Below, piece after piece: positions 2,531 through 10,440 of a stretch of DNA of 34,815 nt (the stretch's first letter is position 1; each line of letters starts with the position of its first letter). A model generated the notes under the pieces. It saw only the letters and a program-made list of their open reading frames with translations, was not told the origin of the DNA and searched no databases. Origin of the DNA: Spirochaetaceae bacterium (lineage in GTDB: Bacteria; Spirochaetota; Spirochaetia; SZUA-6; Bin103); NCBI GenBank assembly GCA_028821475.1, contig JAPPGB010000056.1:1-34815 (forward strand), written 5' to 3'. The position numbers and the translations under genes are program-made.

Positions 2531-2956
2531 GCAGGGGCGGGGCTTGCGTGCCGCCCCCGCCACTCCGAGCACTGGGTGCAACGCTTCGAACGGTACCAGG
2601 AGGCGGGGCCGCAGTTGCTGCTGCAGGCGCACCTGCAGCGCGTGGTCAACGGCGGCGGGCGGATCGAGCGGGAGTACGCGCTGGGGAGGGGCCGGACCGA
2701 CCTGCTGATCGTGTGGCCGCAGGGCGGGCGCGAACGGCGCTGGGTGGTGGAGTGCAAGGTGCGGCACGGGGACCTGGAGCGGACCATCGTGGAGGGGCTG
2801 GAACAGACGCGGGCCTACACGGACCGCTGCGGGGCGGAGGCAGGTCACCTGATCGTGTTCGACCGCGCCGCGGAGCGGAGCTGGGAGGAGAAGATCTTTC
2901 GCCGTGAGGAGCGGGCCCGCACCGGCGCGGCGCCGGTCACCGTCTGGGGCATGTGA
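2531..2956 (+). pseudogene. 3' remnant of an ATPase/PD-(D/E)XK nuclease-type gene
   Basis: The open frame starts right after the stop at 2528-2530. It reads RPRHSEHWVQRFERYQEAGP, then ALGRGRTDLLIVW, then RRWVVECKVRHGDLERTIVE. Counting from the GTG at 2576, D42 and E59-x-K61 form a PD-(D/E)XK-type site, followed by GHLIVFDR. As I know the family, this block is the C-terminal nuclease-like end of larger ATP-binding (AAA-type) proteins; the ATPase part is absent. The only start in reach is the GTG at 2576, with no ribosome binding site, and the family-like residues begin before it. I therefore read it as a truncated remnant. A free-standing 126-residue nuclease-like protein translated from the GTG remains possible. 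Confidence 0.6.
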
Positions 2957-3329
2957 CGCCCGTCCGGCGCACTGGCAATCACGTGCACCGGTGCCCCGCC
3001 CCCGGTCGTCGCGGGATCGCCGTTGCAGGGATTCCACGGGCGGGGGGATCATGCGGCGGTGTGGGGGCGGACGTCGGCGCCGGATCGCCGACGGCAGGCC
3101 TTCGACCGGCGCGAGACGCTATCCCGCGCTGCGATATTATCCATATATCTATAAAGACAATAGCAAGCCAATAGCACACCGAAAGGGCGGCGGAGAATCG
3201 CTTGACAGCGGGGACCGTAAGGTAGGCAGAATGGGTCCGTGAGGCAGCACGGAGCGGCCAACGCACAGACCCTGAAGCGGGCATGCTCGCCGAGGGCCCG
3301 CTTGGTGGCCGGCGCCGTCGAGAACGATC
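2957..3329. other. Intergenic stretch with an AT-rich patch, no gene seen
   Basis: No convincing gene lies in these 373 bases. Around 3132-3177 the sequence turns strikingly AT-rich for this genome (TATTAT at 3135, then TATATCTATAAAG), followed by repeated short CAATAGC motifs. Together with the TTGACA at 3202 this looks like the control region of the downstream methylase operon. Confidence 0.5.
3202..3232 (+). promoter_or_regulatory. Candidate promoter of the methylase operon
   Basis: TTGACA is perfect at 3202-3207. A weaker CAGAAT lies at 3227-3232 after a longer than usual 19-nt spacer. Transcription from here would give a leader of about 90 nt before the ATG at 3330. The AT-rich patch upstream could hold a second promoter. 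Confidence 0.35.
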
Positions 3330-6287
3330 ATGTCTGAGATCGCCACGCTCTTGCGCACCGTACTGGAACGCACTGGATACCTAAGCAACGGAGTGCCTGC
3401 CGCGCCAAGCGTCGGGCTCGCCGGAACGGACAATCACCTCCGCCTGCCCTCGTTCGCGCCTGATGCCTGGTGGCGAAGCAGCACCGAGACCAACCCATGG
3501 ACCGGCACTTCCGATCTCAAGGTGTACTTCAAGTTCGTCGAAGAGCCGGAAGCCGTTCCGGTTGTGGAGTGGCACCAGGAGGTGTGGAACCAGGGGTACT
3601 GCCCGCTGCTGTGGCTGGTGTCGCCCGAGCGCATCGAGCTGTACAACGGCTTCGGCCGCCCACGACCACCGGCGGAGTGGCGAGCGAACCGACTCCGTCC
3701 CTTCGGTCTGGCGGAGGCGGAACTGGCAAGACTCGACGCGTTCGCCGGTCGCCTGGCGATGGAGACCGGAGGATTCTGGCATCAGGCGCCGGAGGTCAAT
3801 CGACGAACCAGTGTTGACGGGCAGTTGCTGCGTGACCTTCACCACCTCGAACGGAGGTTGGTCGACGAGGGTCTCAGCCGGGACGAAACGCAAAGACTCA
3901 TCGGCCGCTCCATCTTCGCTCAGTATCTGATTGATCGCGAAATCGTCGACGGCAGCCGCTTGCAGCGCATCTGCGGTCACGAGGATCTACCGGGCATGTT
4001 AAGTGATCGCCCAGCTAGCAAGCGGTTGTTCGACTGGCTGCGGGAGACGTTCAACGGGGACCTGTTTCCACTGTCTTCGGAGGCGGTTCCCGACCCTCGG
4101 CACCTCGACCTGGTAAGGGAGTTTCTCATGGGCACGGACATGGAGACGGGGCAGAGATCCCTATTTTTTCCCTATCGATTCGACGTGATCCCGGTCGAAC
4201 TGATTAGCGCCATCTACGAGCAGTTCGTACACTCCGCTGCCAACGACTCGTCCGGTCGATCCCGAGCGGATGCCGCGCGAAGGAAGGATGTCCACTACAC
4301 CCCGTTAACCGCGGTCTCCTTGGTGATGGACGAGATCTGCGAGGGATTGACGGGCAACGAGATTGTTCTCGACCTCACCTGCGGCTCCGGCGTATTCCTG
4401 GTCGAAGCGCTGCGGCGCTTGGTGCATCTGAAGTCCGGGGACGTTGTGCCGACTCGATCGGCCATCAGGAAAACGCTCTACGAGCAAATTCATGGTGTCG
4501 ACATCAGCCCCGAGGCGGCGCGTATCGCAGCATTCAGCCTGTACTTGGCCGCGTTGGAGTTGGACCCCCATCCGCACCGGCTCGATGGCCTCCGCTTCGA
4601 TCCTCTGGTCGACCACACGATCCTGGTGAGTGACGCGTTCGACGTGGACTTTGGAACGAGGAAGTTCGACATCATCGTCGGCAATCCGCCGTGGAGCTAT
4701 CGCGGACGCGCGGGGACCGGCGTCCGTCGCGTGCGCAGTCCGGACGCTCTTCGGTCACCTCGTGGCGAGAGCCTCGACTTCGTTGCACGCGCCATGCAGT
4801 TTGCCCATGAACGAACCAGGTTCGGCGTAATCCTGAGCGCGACGCCATTCTTCAGCCGGAGTGCGACGGGTCTGGCCGCCGCACAACGTCTGGTCGAGTC
4901 TCTTGGACCGGTGACGCTGCTCAACTTGGCGGATCTCTCGAAGTGGCTATTTCGAAGAGCCGATATGCCGGCCATTCTGCTGCTCGCGCGCCTCAGTGAG
5001 CAACGGGCGGATCGCATGACCCTGGCACAGGCTCGCTGGTCGCCAGCCGGAGAGCGAAGCCATGCTATCGAGACTGCGCTCGACAACGTAACGACACTTC
5101 CATTAGCCAGTTGGAAGCGCAATGCCGGGTTGTTCAAGGCAGCGTTCGTCGGCCATCACCATGATTTGCTCTTGCTCGACGATCTGTGGGACAAACAACT
5201 GCCGCTGGAAAGAGGGCTCGCCATCCTCGGTACGGGAATGCACACCGGCTTGAAGTTTGGCAATCGTTCGCGCGATGCGACATTTCTCGATGGACTGCCG
5301 TTTGCCGGACCCGGGGCAGTAAGACACTTCACGATGGGCGACGATCTACCAGCGTTCAATCATGTTCGAGCAGAACGTCCGCGAAAACCTACAGTCTATC
5401 GCGCTCCAATCGTTCTCATCAAGGAGTTCATGCTGCAAGGAAACCCACGTCCAGTGGTAGCGGTCACGGAGGAGGACACGGTGTTTTCGGATGCCTATTT
5501 CGGGGTGTCATTCGCCGATTCGCAAGCCGAGACAGCGTACCTGCTTGCCGGAATCCTTGGTTCGGCACTCGCGTCCTGGTTCTTTCTAATGACTGGTGCG
5601 GCCTTCGGTCTTTGGTTGCGACGTGTACAGTGCGCGGACATCCTCGCCTTGCCGGCGCCTGATCTTGAGCAGTCTTTGGAGTCCGAGATCGGGAAGCATG
5701 TGGTGGAGCTTGCGCGTGCCTTTCATGGCCGCACGTCAGAGGAACGTGACTGGAAGTCACTCGACGAAGCGGTATTCGACCTGTATGGGTTGGACGACGA
5801 GGATCGCCTCGTTGTGAGGGACGGACTGTTTCGAGCAAGCTGGCAGTGGCAGGAGGGCCGGCTGAGATCGGTCGCGCCGGCCAACCTACCTGACCTTCAG
5901 GCGTACGCTCGTGCGTTCCTTGCGACGATGGACGCTTGGTTGGGCGCGTCGAATCGGAGGCGGATGCGGGCTGAGATCTATCGTCTGCCGGATGACGCAC
6001 CCCTCCGTCTAATCCGCTTCGTGCTAGAGGAGACTCCCGGTCCTTCCCGCGATGTGCATGTTATCACGCCGGAAGGCACACTGAGCACGGTTCTGGCCGG
6101 CATCGGCGCGCGGACCGGCGTGCGGATCACGGAAGAACTCGTTGGACTCCGTGACCTACGCGTCCACGCAGCGGACGAAGTTTCGATTATCAAACCCGCT
6201 GCACGCCGCAACTGGTTGCGCGTTCAGGCGCTCGAAGACGCGGATGGGGTCGTAAGTGCCAGCGTTCGCGCCGACCGTGCGCCGTGA
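3330..6287 (+). CDS. Eco57I-type N6-adenine DNA methylase, restriction-modification or defence
   Basis: This 985-residue protein is a class I SAM-dependent DNA methyltransferase of the Eco57I/type IIG kind. Motif I is D348-LTCGSG followed by VFLVEALRRL. A GVDISPEAARIAAFSL segment follows, and the catalytic motif IV is N452-PPW within DIIVGNPPWSY. The N-terminal third contains WNQGYCPLLWLVSPERIELY and LIGRSIFAQYLIDREIVDG, as in large type IIG-like methylases. Residues about 740-780 (LLAGILGSALASWFFLM) look like a target-recognition region. About 180 further C-terminal residues are not recognised. No clear PD-(D/E)XK nuclease motif was seen in the N-terminus. The next gene starts inside this one's stop (GTGA overlap) and encodes a nuclease-like protein, so cleavage may be supplied in trans. 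By eye the gene is less GC-rich than its neighbours, which suggests transfer. Confidence 0.9.
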   Translation: MSEIATLLRTVLERTGYLSNGVPAAPSVGLAGTDNHLRLPSFAPDAWWRSSTETNPWTGTSDLKVYFKFVEEPEAVPVVEWHQEVWNQGYCPLLWLVSPERIELYNGFGRPRPPAEWRANRLRPFGLAEAELARLDAFAGRLAMETGGFWHQAPEVNRRTSVDGQLLRDLHHLERRLVDEGLSRDETQRLIGRSIFAQYLIDREIVDGSRLQRICGHEDLPGMLSDRPASKRLFDWLRETFNGDLFPLSSEAVPDPRHLDLVREFLMGTDMETGQRSLFFPYRFDVIPVELISAIYEQFVHSAANDSSGRSRADAARRKDVHYTPLTAVSLVMDEICEGLTGNEIVLDLTCGSGVFLVEALRRLVHLKSGDVVPTRSAIRKTLYEQIHGVDISPEAARIAAFSLYLAALELDPHPHRLDGLRFDPLVDHTILVSDAFDVDFGTRKFDIIVGNPPWSYRGRAGTGVRRVRSPDALRSPRGESLDFVARAMQFAHERTRFGVILSATPFFSRSATGLAAAQRLVESLGPVTLLNLADLSKWLFRRADMPAILLLARLSEQRADRMTLAQARWSPAGERSHAIETALDNVTTLPLASWKRNAGLFKAAFVGHHHDLLLLDDLWDKQLPLERGLAILGTGMHTGLKFGNRSRDATFLDGLPFAGPGAVRHFTMGDDLPAFNHVRAERPRKPTVYRAPIVLIKEFMLQGNPRPVVAVTEEDTVFSDAYFGVSFADSQAETAYLLAGILGSALASWFFLMTGAAFGLWLRRVQCADILALPAPDLEQSLESEIGKHVVELARAFHGRTSEERDWKSLDEAVFDLYGLDDEDRLVVRDGLFRASWQWQEGRLRSVAPANLPDLQAYARAFLATMDAWLGASNRRRMRAEIYRLPDDAPLRLIRFVLEETPGPSRDVHVITPEGTLSTVLAGIGARTGVRITEELVGLRDLRVHAADEVSIIKPAARRNWLRVQALEDADGVVSASVRADRAP

Positions 6288-6955
6288 ACTTTGGCGCGCG
6301 GCCCCAGGATGTCGGCGCCCGGTTTATCGACATCGGGGCTGAGCGCAGAGTCGCGACCATGTCGACGATTGAGGCCGGTTGGCGCCGTGCCCGGGAGATC
6401 AGCGAGGTAGACCCTCAATCCGGTGAAGTGGAGATCACGGAGTGCCTTCGCGAAGGAATGCGAAGGATATTGTCAGAACGCACTGCGATCTGGTGCAAGA
6501 GGATGACAGTTCTCCCCGGAACCGAGTCCCGCTCGAGCCCGGCAGCCACGAGGCCCGATGGGCGAACCGACATTCCGATCTTCTTCCAGGAGATTCGTGA
6601 GACACACGATGACCACGACCCGCACGCAATAATCGAATGCAAGCGAGTCGCCGCGAATGACGCGGCACTGTGTCGGCTCTACGTAGTGGAAGGGATAGAC
6701 CGCTACACGAGCACGAAATACGCGGGCCGACATACGGTCGCGTTCATGGCCGGATACGTGCTGTCAGGGAGCGTTGGTGCGGTAGCCCATGGTATCAACC
6801 GTTACCTGTCGCGACACGATCGTGCCGCCGAACGCCTCACGTCGTGTACCGTTGTTGTCGCAGCGTGGGCGCGCAGCAGCCGGCATCCTCGACCGCCTCC
6901 GGCTGCGCCGATCGATTTGCACCACGCGTTCCTCACGTTCAAGGCGGTTCCCTGA
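6284..6955 (+). CDS. PD-(D/E)XK-like putative nuclease coupled to the methylase
   Basis: The 223-residue product has a plausible PD-(D/E)XK core: GRTDIPIF with D96, about 20 residues of hairpin, then HAIIECKRV with E118 and K120. The segment EGIDRYTSTKYAGRHTVAFM follows, resembling the helix after the core in restriction endonuclease-fold proteins. The start is GTG at 6284, overlapping the methylase stop (tGTGA), so translation is probably coupled and the two proteins likely act together. An internal ATG at 6359 is an alternative. I do not recognise a named family. The role as cleaving partner or accessory subunit of the methylase is inferred from the motif and the overlap. The C-terminal 40 residues are Arg/Pro-rich. 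Remnants of a PLD-domain helicase lie directly downstream. Confidence 0.7.
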   Translation: MNFGARPQDVGARFIDIGAERRVATMSTIEAGWRRAREISEVDPQSGEVEITECLREGMRRILSERTAIWCKRMTVLPGTESRSSPAATRPDGRTDIPIFFQEIRETHDDHDPHAIIECKRVAANDAALCRLYVVEGIDRYTSTKYAGRHTVAFMAGYVLSGSVGAVAHGINRYLSRHDRAAERLTSCTVVVAAWARSSRHPRPPPAAPIDLHHAFLTFKAVP

Positions 6956-6989
6956 CAGATCGGCTATGCTCACTCGCTACTCGTCGCGC

Positions 6990-7221
6990 CGCCAACCGCT
7001 GAATTCAGGCTTTCTGAATTCCAGGCTTACCGGCGCCGGAAGCTATGACCGCATCGCCGTGGTGCGACTCGCGTCCCGAGCAGTTGGGTGACGCGGCCAA
7101 GCCGCGCTTCACGCATCTCTACGAATGGCTGCGCTCTGGCAAGATCGAGATTCGCGTGCTGCCCGATGACGCCTTCGGGCGGAACCACCCGGAGCCGATC
7201 CTGGCTCGACGTATAGTCTGA
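6990..7221 (+). pseudogene. Remnant of a phospholipase-D-domain helicase gene
   Basis: Two frames carry pieces of one protein start. The first, near 7000-7060, reads LNSGFLNSRLTGAGSYDRIA. The second, an open frame at 7045-7221, reads WCDSRPEQLGDAAKPRFTHL then YEWLRSGKIEIRVLPDDAFG before losing similarity. As I know the family, large helicases with an N-terminal PLD-like nuclease domain have these two segments in this order, separated by a stretch missing here, with the second normally continuing LIHGKAG. The catalytic HKD part and the whole helicase are gone. This is therefore a short decayed fragment with an internal deletion and frame change. Its place just behind the methylase/nuclease pair suggests it was once the third gene of that operon. 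Confidence 0.55.
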
Positions 7222-7327: not shown

Positions 7328-8116
7328 TCAGCGGAACAGGTCCGTTTCGAGGGGGCGGGGGATCGTCGCGGCGGTGTGGGGGGCGGCGGATTGCGCGGGG
7401 CCGCCGGCCGGCGGCGGCAGGCCCCGGACCAGGGCGGCGGGGGTGCGCTCGGTGGATTCGCCCATGACCAGGACGGCGGCGGCGGCGATGGCGTCGGCGC
7501 GGTTGATCAGGGTGGCCTGCAGCTCGCGGCCGTAGAGGTCGCGGCTGCCGCGGCGGTCGTCGAGCACGGCGAGGCCGGCGGCGCCGATCGCGATGCCCAC
7601 GGTGCCGAGCCGCCAGGGCCGGTTGCTGCTGTCGCTGATCAGCACGCCGATGCGGGCGCCGGTGCGATCGGCGATGGCGCGCCGCAGGCGCGCGGCGGTG
7701 GCGTCCGGCGCTGCCGGCAGCAGCAGGGCGGTGGCCGATGCGCCGTGATCGAGGTTGGACTGGTCGATGCCGGCGTTGGCGCATACCAGGCCGAGCCGGT
7801 TGCGGGTGATCAGCACGCCGGGGGCCTTGCGCACCACCTCGGTGGACTGGTCGAGGATGAGCTGCACGAGACGCGGATCCTTGCCGGTCTCGGCGGCCAG
7901 GTCGATGGCGGCGGGCGAGGGTTCGACGTGGTCCAGCGCAACCTGCCGGCCCTCAGCCTTGGACACGATCTTCTGGGTGACCACGAGGACGTCGCCGTCC
8001 ATCGGCGCCACGTCCGCGGCGGCCAGCGCCGCCACCAGGATCTCAGCGAGGTCATCGCCCGCCTGCACCAGTGGAATGCCGCTCAGCCCAGTGACGGTCA
8101 GGGGCGTTTCATCCAT
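7328..8116 (-). CDS. cofE: Coenzyme F420-0:L-glutamate ligase
   Basis: The 262-residue product matches CofE, the GTP-dependent cytoplasmic ligase that adds glutamates to F420-0. Visible landmarks are VVTQKIVSKAEGR (residues 45-57), VCANAGIDQSN (111-121, metal and nucleotide site region), ISDSSNRPWRLGTVGIAIG with the conserved S-R-x-W-R-x-G, and a C-terminal NRADAIAAAAVLVMGE. The length is normal for the single-domain enzyme, without the FbiB-type flavin domain. The ATG at 8116 is preceded after 11 nt by the stop of npdG, so the two genes are one operon. No cofC, cofD or cofG/H genes are in the window. The call is strong. Confidence 0.93.
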   Translation of the reverse strand: MDETPLTVTGLSGIPLVQAGDDLAEILVAALAAADVAPMDGDVLVVTQKIVSKAEGRQVALDHVEPSPAAIDLAAETGKDPRLVQLILDQSTEVVRKAPGVLITRNRLGLVCANAGIDQSNLDHGASATALLLPAAPDATAARLRRAIADRTGARIGVLISDSSNRPWRLGTVGIAIGAAGLAVLDDRRGSRDLYGRELQATLINRADAIAAAAVLVMGESTERTPAALVRGLPPPAGGPAQSAAPHTAATIPRPLETDLFR

Positions 8117-8127
8117 GGGGCGGGTGC

Positions 8128-8964
8128 TTATCCCTGGCCGACCAGCTTGATACCGGCGTGGCTGATCGGGTGGCGGCGGTTGATCTGAATCAGCACGCTG
8201 GTCAGCGCCTCCGCGGCGGCGGCGTTGTCGATCGGGCCGGCGTGCCAGCCGGTCATGCCGGCAGCTCGCACCAGCTCGATCACCTGGTCGCGCGCGGCCT
8301 TCTTGTTGCCGGCCACCAGCACGTCGCACTCGATCTCCACGTCCTGCTGCAGCAGGTGGGCCGCGACGTTCTGGAACGCCGACACCACCATGACGCCGTC
8401 GCCGAGAAACTCCTGCGCGCGCTTGCCCGCGGATCCCTCGGCCGGAAGCTGCACGGTGCCCACCTTCGGCGGCACGAGGGGAACCGTGACGTCGATCACG
8501 ATCTTGCCGGTCAGACTCGCCTGCACGCCGGCCAGAGTGGCGACCTGGTGCGCGGACGGCACGGTGAGCACCACGATGTCGGCGGCCTCGGCGGCGGCCG
8601 CGTTGGTGGCCGCGCGGGCGGTGGTGTCGGGATGGCGGGCGCGTAGCGCGGCCAGTGCCGCCTCTGCCTTTGCCAGCGTGCGCGAGCCGATCACCACGCG
8701 GTAGCCGGCGCGCGACCAGCGCCCGGCCAGGCCGGTGCCCAGGTCGCCGGTGCCGCCGAGTATCGCGATGGTCTCCCGGCGCGGAGATTCGGTTCCGGCA
8801 AGCGAACCGCGGGCAGCGGTGTGCGTGGCAGCAGGCGTGCCGGGGTCACCGTGCCCGCCGGTGCGCGTGTCCCTGCCGGCCGGCGCCGGTGAGCCGCCGT
8901 TCCCGCTTGTCCCTGTGCCGGCCCGCCCGCCGGCCGGCGCGGTCAGGTTGTCCACGGCGCTCAT
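8128..8964 (-). CDS. npdG: NADPH-dependent F420 reductase
   Basis: This is an F420:NADP+ oxidoreductase (Fno/NpdG type), which moves hydride between NADP(H) and F420. Residues from about 65 read TIAILGGTGDLGTGLA, the dinucleotide loop, followed by RVVIGSRTLAKAEAAL. DIVVLTVPSAHQVATL and GKIVIDVTVPLVPPK are typical, as is VVSAFQNVAAHLLQ in the F420-binding half. The protein ends NRRHPISHAGIKL. The 278 residues include an unusual extension of about 64 residues, rich in Gly, Thr, Pro and Ala, before the Rossmann domain. No other ATG is available, so the start may be a later GTG or TTG. The ATG overlaps the stop of the HIT gene (ATGA). The gene sits in a HIT-npdG-cofE operon. Confidence 0.92.
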   Translation of the reverse strand: MSAVDNLTAPAGGRAGTGTSGNGGSPAPAGRDTRTGGHGDPGTPAATHTAARGSLAGTESPRRETIAILGGTGDLGTGLAGRWSRAGYRVVIGSRTLAKAEAALAALRARHPDTTARAATNAAAAEAADIVVLTVPSAHQVATLAGVQASLTGKIVIDVTVPLVPPKVGTVQLPAEGSAGKRAQEFLGDGVMVVSAFQNVAAHLLQQDVEIECDVLVAGNKKAARDQVIELVRAAGMTGWHAGPIDNAAAAEALTSVLIQINRRHPISHAGIKLVGQG

Positions 8965-9359
8965 TGCGGCAGGGCGGCGCGGATGCGCGCCGCCTCGGCG
9001 GCCAGCGCGTCGTCACCGGGGAAGGGAGTGACGTTCGCGAAGTCCATGTCGTGCATGCCGTCGATCGGGCTCACGTGGATATGCACGTGCGGCACCTCCA
9101 GCCCGGCGATCAGCAGCCCCACCTTGGTGGGCCGGTACACCGCCTGCTGCGCACGGGCCACGATGCGCGCCACCCGCATCAGCGCCGCCACGGCGCCGTC
9201 GTCGAGGTCGATCCAGTGATTCACCTCGACCCGCGGCACCACCAGGGTATGACCGGGGCGCAGCGGTTCCCGCGCCATGAAGGCGACGCACGATTCGTCC
9301 TTCCTGACGAAGTGGGCCGGCAACTCGCCGGCGATGATACGAGTGAACACGCTTGCCAT
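8961..9359 (-). CDS. HIT family nucleotide hydrolase
   Basis: A 132-residue histidine-triad protein. It starts MASVFTRIIAGELPAHFVR, as bacterial HinT-like proteins do, has RPGHTLVVPRVEV in the middle, and carries the active-site triad H91-V-H93-I-H95 in EVPHVHIHVSP. HIT proteins hydrolyse nucleoside phosphoramidates or adenylated metabolites; the in vivo substrate here is unknown. The open frame continues upstream to 9563, but family similarity begins at the ATG at 9359. It is the first gene of the operon with npdG, overlapping it by 4 nt. A direct repeat and the divergent start of the sialidase-like gene lie upstream. Confidence 0.92.
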   Translation of the reverse strand: MASVFTRIIAGELPAHFVRKDESCVAFMAREPLRPGHTLVVPRVEVNHWIDLDDGAVAALMRVARIVARAQQAVYRPTKVGLLIAGLEVPHVHIHVSPIDGMHDMDFANVTPFPGDDALAAEAARIRAALPQ

Positions 9360-9372
9360 CGCCGGACAGTGT

Positions 9373-9397
9373 AACCTGTATGGGCAACCTGTATGGG
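9373..9397. repeat. 12-nt direct repeat between divergent genes
   Basis: AACCTGTATGGG occurs at 9373-9384 and again at 9386-9397, separated by one base. It fills half of the 58-nt gap between the divergent HIT and sialidase-like genes. It may be an operator or a doubled -10 region (CTGTAT). Confidence 0.85.
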
Positions 9398-9417
9398 GGC
9401 GCAGGGAGGTCGAACGG

Positions 9418-10440
9418 ATGATTGAACGACTCGAGGTGCACAAGATCTGGAACCGGGCCGCGTACAACTCCTTCACCGACCTCATCCGGTTCCGCGGGCG
9501 CTGGTGGTGCGCGTTCCGGGAGGGATCGGGGCATCTGTCGCCCGACGGTGCCCTGCGCGTCATCTCGTCCCACGACGGGCAGGCGTGGAGCTCGGTAGCG
9601 TCGATACCCTGCCCGCAGACGTATCAGGACCTGCGCGACCCGCAACTGTCGATCACGCCCGACAACCGGCTGATGCTGAACGCGGCCGCATTCAAGCCGG
9701 TGTGCCAGTCGATGATGTGGCTGTCGGAGGATGGTTGCGACTGGGGGACACATCACCTGGTCGGCCCGCGCGGAAGCTGGCTGTGGCGCGCGGTCTGGCA
9801 CCGCGGCGTCGCATACAGCTTCGGGCGTCACGAACCCAAGGATCACCTGCTCCAGTTCTACCGGAGCACCGACGGTGTCGAGTATCGGGCACACGGCGAG
9901 CCGCGCGTCGGCACCTGCCCGTGCAATGAGTCGGACCTTCTGTTCCTCGACGATGCGACGTGCGTGAGCCTGACGCGCTGTGACGGCGGCAACGCCCTGC
10001 TGGGGAGAGCGGCTCCGCCGTACGACACCTGGACGTGGACCGATCTGGGCGTGCGCATCGGCGGTCCCGCCTTGCTGCGCCTCCCGGACGGACGCACGAT
10101 CGCTGCGGTACGCCTGTACGAGCCCCGGCAGCGTACCGCGCTGTGCTGGCTCGATCTCGAATCCGCTGCGTTGACGGAGTTCCTGACGCTGCCCTCCGGC
10201 GGTGACACCAGCTATGCCGGCATGGTGTGGCACGACGACCTGCTGTGGTTGAGCTACTATTCCTCGGACGACTACCTGACCAGCATGAAGGTCGCAATCC
10301 GGGCCCACCTCCGGACCAGCGTGTACCTGGCCAAGGTGCGGTTCCAGCCGCCGGCGATGCCTCACTCGGCCAGCTTCGATCCCGCCACCAGGCGTACGCC
10401 GGCGCCCGGCACGGCGCTGTCGCAGGCCGGGCAGAAGTAG
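9418..10440 (+). CDS. Sialidase-fold (BNR-type beta-propeller) protein
   Basis: The 340-residue product looks like a sialidase-superfamily beta-propeller. NSFTDLIRFRGRWWCAFREG at the N-terminus resembles the start of such propellers. The blade-like repeats ISSHDGQAWSSV, SEDGCDWGTHH and YRSTDGVEYRAHG contain Asp-box-like S-x-D-G-x-x-W cores. LLRLPDGRTIAAVRLY follows later. There is no signal peptide, so it is probably cytoplasmic. The enzymatic activity (glycosidase or other) cannot be fixed. The ATG at 9418 has a GGGAGG ribosome binding site at 9403-9408. The 3' end overlaps the 3' end of the convergent hxlR-type gene by 79 nt. Confidence 0.75.
   Translation: MIERLEVHKIWNRAAYNSFTDLIRFRGRWWCAFREGSGHLSPDGALRVISSHDGQAWSSVASIPCPQTYQDLRDPQLSITPDNRLMLNAAAFKPVCQSMMWLSEDGCDWGTHHLVGPRGSWLWRAVWHRGVAYSFGRHEPKDHLLQFYRSTDGVEYRAHGEPRVGTCPCNESDLLFLDDATCVSLTRCDGGNALLGRAAPPYDTWTWTDLGVRIGGPALLRLPDGRTIAAVRLYEPRQRTALCWLDLESAALTEFLTLPSGGDTSYAGMVWHDDLLWLSYYSSDDYLTSMKVAIRAHLRTSVYLAKVRFQPPAMPHSASFDPATRRTPAPGTALSQAGQK

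Follow-up and report, generated by a model that had tools for sequence, protein, structure and literature searches.

Type IIG restriction-modification (R-M) enzymes such as BpuSI, Eco57I, MmeI and DrdV combine an N-terminal PD-(D/E)XK nuclease fold, a helical connector, a gamma-class methylase and a target-recognition region in the same chain, and none of the organisations listed in a review of the group has a separate cleavage subunit (PMC3874165). In the Type IIB systems BcgI and BsaXI (RM plus S), a gamma methylase chain is accompanied by one small partner, which is the specificity subunit, and the nuclease remains on the large chain (PMC3874165). The BspD6I/BstNBI heterodimer has a 186-aa small subunit that gives a catalytic site to the large recognition subunit (PMC4081073), and in Haloferax volcanii the proteins HVO_A0006/HVO_A0237 have been proposed to represent a Type IIG enzyme split into nuclease and methylase pieces (PMC4389544). 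Here we analysed a pair of adjacent genes, designated M and N, in a 34,815-nucleotide stretch of DNA (hereafter the window) from Spirochaetaceae bacterium (assembly GCA_028821475.1, contig JAPPGB010000056.1, positions 1-34,815, forward strand; all coordinates are those of the window). We consider it likely that this pair is a two-subunit Type IIG-like R-M system, in which cleavage has moved to the separate subunit N. The features of the pair are as follows.

3330..6287, + strand: M, a 985-aa open reading frame (ORF) with ATG start; gamma-class (NPPW) adenine DNA methylase of Type IIG-like architecture
3330..3779, + strand: M residues 1-150, degenerate PD-(D/E)XK domain, D45 ... Y66-F67-K68, with Tyr in place of the catalytic Glu
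3801..4244, + strand: M residues 158-305, helical connector by AlphaFold2 (AF2) secondary structure; Type I M and MmeI align structurally from 157-162 onward
4245..5009, + strand: M residues 306-560, methyltransferase core, with D348-LTCGSG at 4371-4391 and N452-PPW at 4683-4694
5127..5654, + strand: M residues ~600-775, target-recognition region; structural alignment with CamA/M.BseCI extends to residue ~821-825
5847..6284, + strand: M residues ~840-985, extra C-terminal domain, K955-P956 ... W962 ... D970-A971; candidate docking site for N
6284..6955, + strand: N, a 223-aa ORF with GTG start within the M stop (GTGA); PD-(D/E)XK-type protein, candidate cleavage subunit
6569..6571, + strand: candidate catalytic Asp of N, D96 (GRTDI), invariant in 29 diverse N proteins
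6635..6643, + strand: candidate catalytic E118-C-K120 of N; E and K unchanged across the 29 diverse N proteins

M shares all of the above elements of Type IIG enzymes, and its structure model matches BpuSI, MmeI and DrdV. Unlike those enzymes, however, it has a degenerate nuclease centre and an extra C-terminal domain, and cleavage would be assigned to a separate subunit of approximately 210-255 aa. The combination of a gamma methylase chain with one small partner is reminiscent of BcgI/BsaXI, except that the nuclease triad is here on the small partner. The role that we propose for N, the supply of a catalytic site, would be analogous to that of the small subunit of BspD6I/BstNBI, whose large subunit, unlike M, is itself a nuclease and not a methylase. 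HVO_A0006/HVO_A0237 goes back to one true Type IIG protein, with a PD-X14-EAK of its own, whose gene has been broken; N, in contrast, forms a separate family, and a dead version of the nuclease fold persists in M. BREX (bacteriophage exclusion) PglX and the BREX-related (DUF1156) methylases are likewise adenine methylases of defence systems, and in two loci (L003 and L005) a DUF1156 methylase shares the neighbourhood of the pair. The PglX models, in contrast, score far below cut-off for M (the best NCBIfam match of M, BREX_2_MTaseX, reached 33.4 bits against a cut-off of 400 bits), and no PglZ turned up among the neighbour genes scanned. A literature search, mostly of open-access papers and without REBASE, found no description of the M-N pair. 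We classed the pair as a variant of Type IIG, because the PADLOC Type IIG models already hold M but not N.

Pairing of M and N across genomes

The search with N covered 84,980 species genomes, from which 58 true relatives were retained. An earlier reading of this DNA, made from the sequence only, had proposed counting how often the two families are adjacent; we found M immediately upstream of N in 58/58 cases. The 4-bp overlap between the two genes (ATGA, GTGA or TTGA) was exact in 55 of these, and in the remaining three loci the start or frame of N was not cleanly callable. No N apart from M was found, except in L064, where N begins at the contig end. Two archaeal contigs (L061/L062) initially counted as N relatives were treated as spurious, as they gave no match on re-search and the ORFs of L061 look like housekeeping genes.

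Since a search based on N alone would be circular, M profiles were also run against genomes from the phylum of the window and from groups built around the genomes of L031, L011, L024 and L054, and the regions around the matches were retrieved. Proteins matching the profile to its end (~976-980) were termed class A, with those of L083 and L200 being split or truncated, and proteins matching only to ~830, which comprise single-chain Type IIG-like and other gamma methylases, were termed class B. An intact adjacent N was present in 24 of the 26 class A loci, with a broken N in a 25th (L085), as compared with 0/29 loci for class B methylases (Fisher p 1.3e-13, with loci treated as independent though a few are closely related). 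The pairing of M and N is near-obligate in class A, which is contrary to what would be expected of a single-chain Type IIG enzyme, whose cleavage requires no second subunit. The class B proteins (29) were without the extra C-terminal domain, which was confined to the M class having an N partner. Conversely, an N-terminal D...ExK motif of their own was detected in 25/29 class B proteins versus 3/26 class A proteins by a permissive scan, in which the class B count includes a few chance matches and all three class A matches were out of place, so that no correctly placed motif was found in class A. In addition, 8/8 further M relatives on plasmids had N directly or closely downstream, annotated as 'hypothetical protein' and once as 'Fis family transcriptional regulator'. 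Two apparent N-less M loci (L068 and L069) contained truncated M fragments and were treated as decayed. In three loci (L083, L200 and L216), M was in two ORFs or truncated and N was intact.

Domains of M and N

Both ORFs in the window are intact, with zero internal stops. The adenine-methylase core described by the sequence-only reading (DLTCGSG from residue 348 and NPPW at 452), the start of the 223-aa N inside the M stop codon, and the residues D96 and E118-C-K120 of N were all located where that reading had placed them. M matched the Pfam families N6_Mtase (7e-12) and Eco57I (1.5e-9), and PADLOC REase_MTase_IIG (PDLC03603) matched M alone with an E value of 9e-46; this model and a second PADLOC Type IIG model, PDLC03623, span class A M proteins almost full length. 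The same reading had suspected an undescribed restriction-like pair. This fits the conserved two-gene module and the unnamed N, but M by itself is already within REase_MTase_IIG. The structure model of M resembled CamA (Z 28) and BrxX in addition to the three Type IIG enzymes named above. A methylase core with motifs I and IV and a target-recognition region after the core, both characteristic of Type IIG, were found in M. The same-chain N-terminal catalytic PD-(D/E)XK site was not, as Tyr66 replaces the Glu.

M had been described as having no nuclease motif, which is correct for the catalytic motif but not for the domain. A profile of the class A N-terminal domain aligned to the class B N-terminal nuclease domain in a profile-profile comparison (prob 95%, E 2.7e-8). 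In this alignment, D45, Y66 and K68 fall on the catalytic Asp, the catalytic Glu and the Lys, respectively. Y66 and K68 were invariant among 31 M proteins of the window's family, and the N-terminal nuclease site of distant class A proteins was further decayed. These alignments indicate that the N-terminus of M is homologous to the Type IIG nuclease domain, retained as a fold but with its catalytic Glu lost. The target-recognition region was the least conserved part of M (mean identity 0.51, as compared with 0.66 in the core). In the last ~145 residues, the motif K-P...W...D-A was kept in most class A proteins.

In N, seven residues (E48, D96, E118, K120, Y133, G137 and H214) were invariant in 29 proteins showing 14-70% identity to the window N. 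Because of this invariance at such divergence, and of the M-then-N order in 58/58 relatives, we regard the features of the locus as beyond chance. In an AF2 model of N (predicted local distance difference test score, pLDDT, 86), strand 96-101 opens with D96, and E118/K120 lie within the next strand, 115-122. The conserved D...(D/E)xK and an alpha-beta core with the triad on central strands, which characterise the PD-(D/E)XK superfamily, were thus both found, the latter in the model. In a second-look VIA structural alignment of the N model, BstYI (Z 5.9) and BglII (Z 5.8) ranked first, followed further down by McrC, NucC, PspGI and EcoRV, with these rows spanning Z 3.5-5.9. This fold evidence is supportive, not decisive.

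Searches of N against Pfam, NCBIfam and PADLOC gave no match, and its sequence and profile found among PDB sequences only a ribosomal protein at chance level (E 1.1). Scattered single-member matches were all that came from searching 35 close N proteins against Pfam and 29 diverse ones against Pfam, NCBIfam, PHROGs and PADLOC. The sequence-only reading had not recognised N as a named endonuclease family, which agrees with these results. A profile of N did not match the N-terminus of M, so descent of N from that domain is not supported. Judging from the conserved motif and the model, N is a PD-(D/E)XK-type protein outside every named family in the libraries searched.

Genomic context and spread

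The sequence-only reading had also noted debris of defence-type genes on both sides of the pair and a lower GC content than in the neighbourhood. Both observations were borne out: the GC fraction is 0.59-0.64 over 3-7 kb and ~0.68-0.75 in the DNA to both sides, and the following fragments were identified.

2576..2953, + strand: broken PDDEXK_9-type fragment (PF08011-like, sub-threshold), upstream of M
3278..3334, + strand: 3' end (19 codons) of a gene for a DUF1156 (BREX-related) methylase, 14/19 identical to the L003 protein
6966..7188, + strand: parts of the N-terminus of a PLD (HKD) helicase, BREX-related, 71-77% identity by tblastn

In two close relatives whose flanks are complete, L003 and L005, a DUF1156 methylase and a PLD helicase enclose the pair; both are components of BREX-related systems (PMC12839542). 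The methylase remnant in the window has 12/13 last residues identical to the L005 protein and lies at the same position relative to M as in L003/L005, and the helicase remnant matched the gene after N in both loci (joint E 1e-26). These similarities indicate that a BREX-related locus has collapsed around the M-N pair, which itself remained intact. Downstream on the minus strand (7328-9563), genes for an F420-0:gamma-glutamyl ligase, an NADPH-dependent F420 reductase and an HIT protein adjoin the pair; these are ordinary metabolic neighbours marking the insertion edge. No HsdR or HsdS gene lies beside the pair in the window, and the pair does not have the make-up of a Type I R-M system. Type I R-M genes occur nearby in some loci, and the full set near L017 consists of genes separate from the pair.

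Several proteobacterial genera, including Stutzerimonas, Dyella, Thauera, Rhodanobacter and Pseudomonas, share a segment of up to 16.6 kb with 96-99% identity that carries the pair (L029-L041, L049 and L060), in keeping with its transfer among them; the segment resembles a mobile element. A gene for a MerR-type helix-turn-helix regulator, possibly a controller, overlaps the M start in L031 (positions 4532-5023 of that locus) and some 45 other loci, and is often the first gene of the operon. It is absent from the window; in L004, a gene for a LexA-type repressor takes its place, just ahead of M. Neither N nor M was found in phage records, and E. coli genomes gave no match to the L031 pair.

Interpretation of the pair

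The main rival to the two-subunit interpretation is a conventional Type II system, in which N reads and cuts its site alone and M is merely the protective methylase. The nearest solved folds of N, BstYI and BglII, are indeed small stand-alone Type IIP enzymes, and 223 aa would be enough length for such an enzyme. However, a single N family tracks a single M scaffold across 14-70% identity; since the target-recognition region is the most variable part of M, N appears to follow the scaffold and not the specificity. The fixed gene order and overlap would be unusual for R and M proteins acting independently, as would a dead nuclease fold and an extra domain restricted to the class with N. We therefore regard this rival as rather improbable. 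It is very unlikely, in our estimation, that M is an ordinary single-chain Type IIG enzyme with N as an accessory, such as a regulator, a modified-DNA nuclease or a back-up effector. Almost full-length coverage of class A by the PADLOC Type IIG models and the nuclease-like fold still present at the M N-terminus would suit that explanation, but the class A triad is missing there (Glu to Tyr in the window's family, more decay elsewhere), the triad of N is invariant, and N nearly always accompanies class A and was never observed with class B. Least probable of all is that the pair is a component of a BREX-related DUF1156/PLD-helicase system and not autonomous. The arrangement in L003/L005 and the fragments of both genes kept in the window point in that direction; clustering of neighbours, however, detected a DUF1156-type gene in only 6 loci, with most loci having none, and in the window M and N have stayed intact although the genes on either side of them are destroyed.

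Several points nevertheless weigh against the two-subunit interpretation. The class A M of L063 had no N before the contig end. The structural matches of N were middling, all with Z <6, and unrelated chains (Rep15) reached similar Z, while Foldseek of the N model alone gave no significant PDB match. N itself might read DNA. Docking at the C-terminal domain, moreover, is suggested solely by co-occurrence.

If the pair is a two-subunit Type IIG-like system, M would read the target sequence through its target-recognition region and methylate host DNA, and its ancestral nuclease domain would have been kept as a fold after loss of the catalytic Glu. N, probably produced by coupled translation with M, would most likely bind M in trans and cut at or near unmodified target sites, and the complex may have an anti-phage role. 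The best candidate dock is the extra C-terminal domain, because this domain co-occurs with N; perhaps the pseudo-nuclease domain also contributes. The C-terminus had been put forward earlier as a possible interface, a suggestion with which the co-occurrence agrees, the docking itself being deduced from it. When the divergence of N was compared with that of the separate M domains, the correlation was too weak to locate the interface.

On balance, we are inclined to view the pair as a widespread R-M architecture that has gone unrecognised, with a Type IIG-like methylase that keeps a nuclease-dead domain and recruits a dedicated cleavage subunit of an unnamed family via a dedicated C-terminal domain. 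If this is true, class A proteins now counted as one-gene 'Type IIG' enzymes would be two-gene systems. Databases score M as Type IIG and leave N as a 'hypothetical protein', and the half that cuts would thereby go unnoticed in genomes from several phyla. With cleavage on a separate subunit, the R and M functions would be separable experimentally, and the family would represent an intermediate between the Type I organisation, with a separate R, and the Type IIG organisation, with a fused R.
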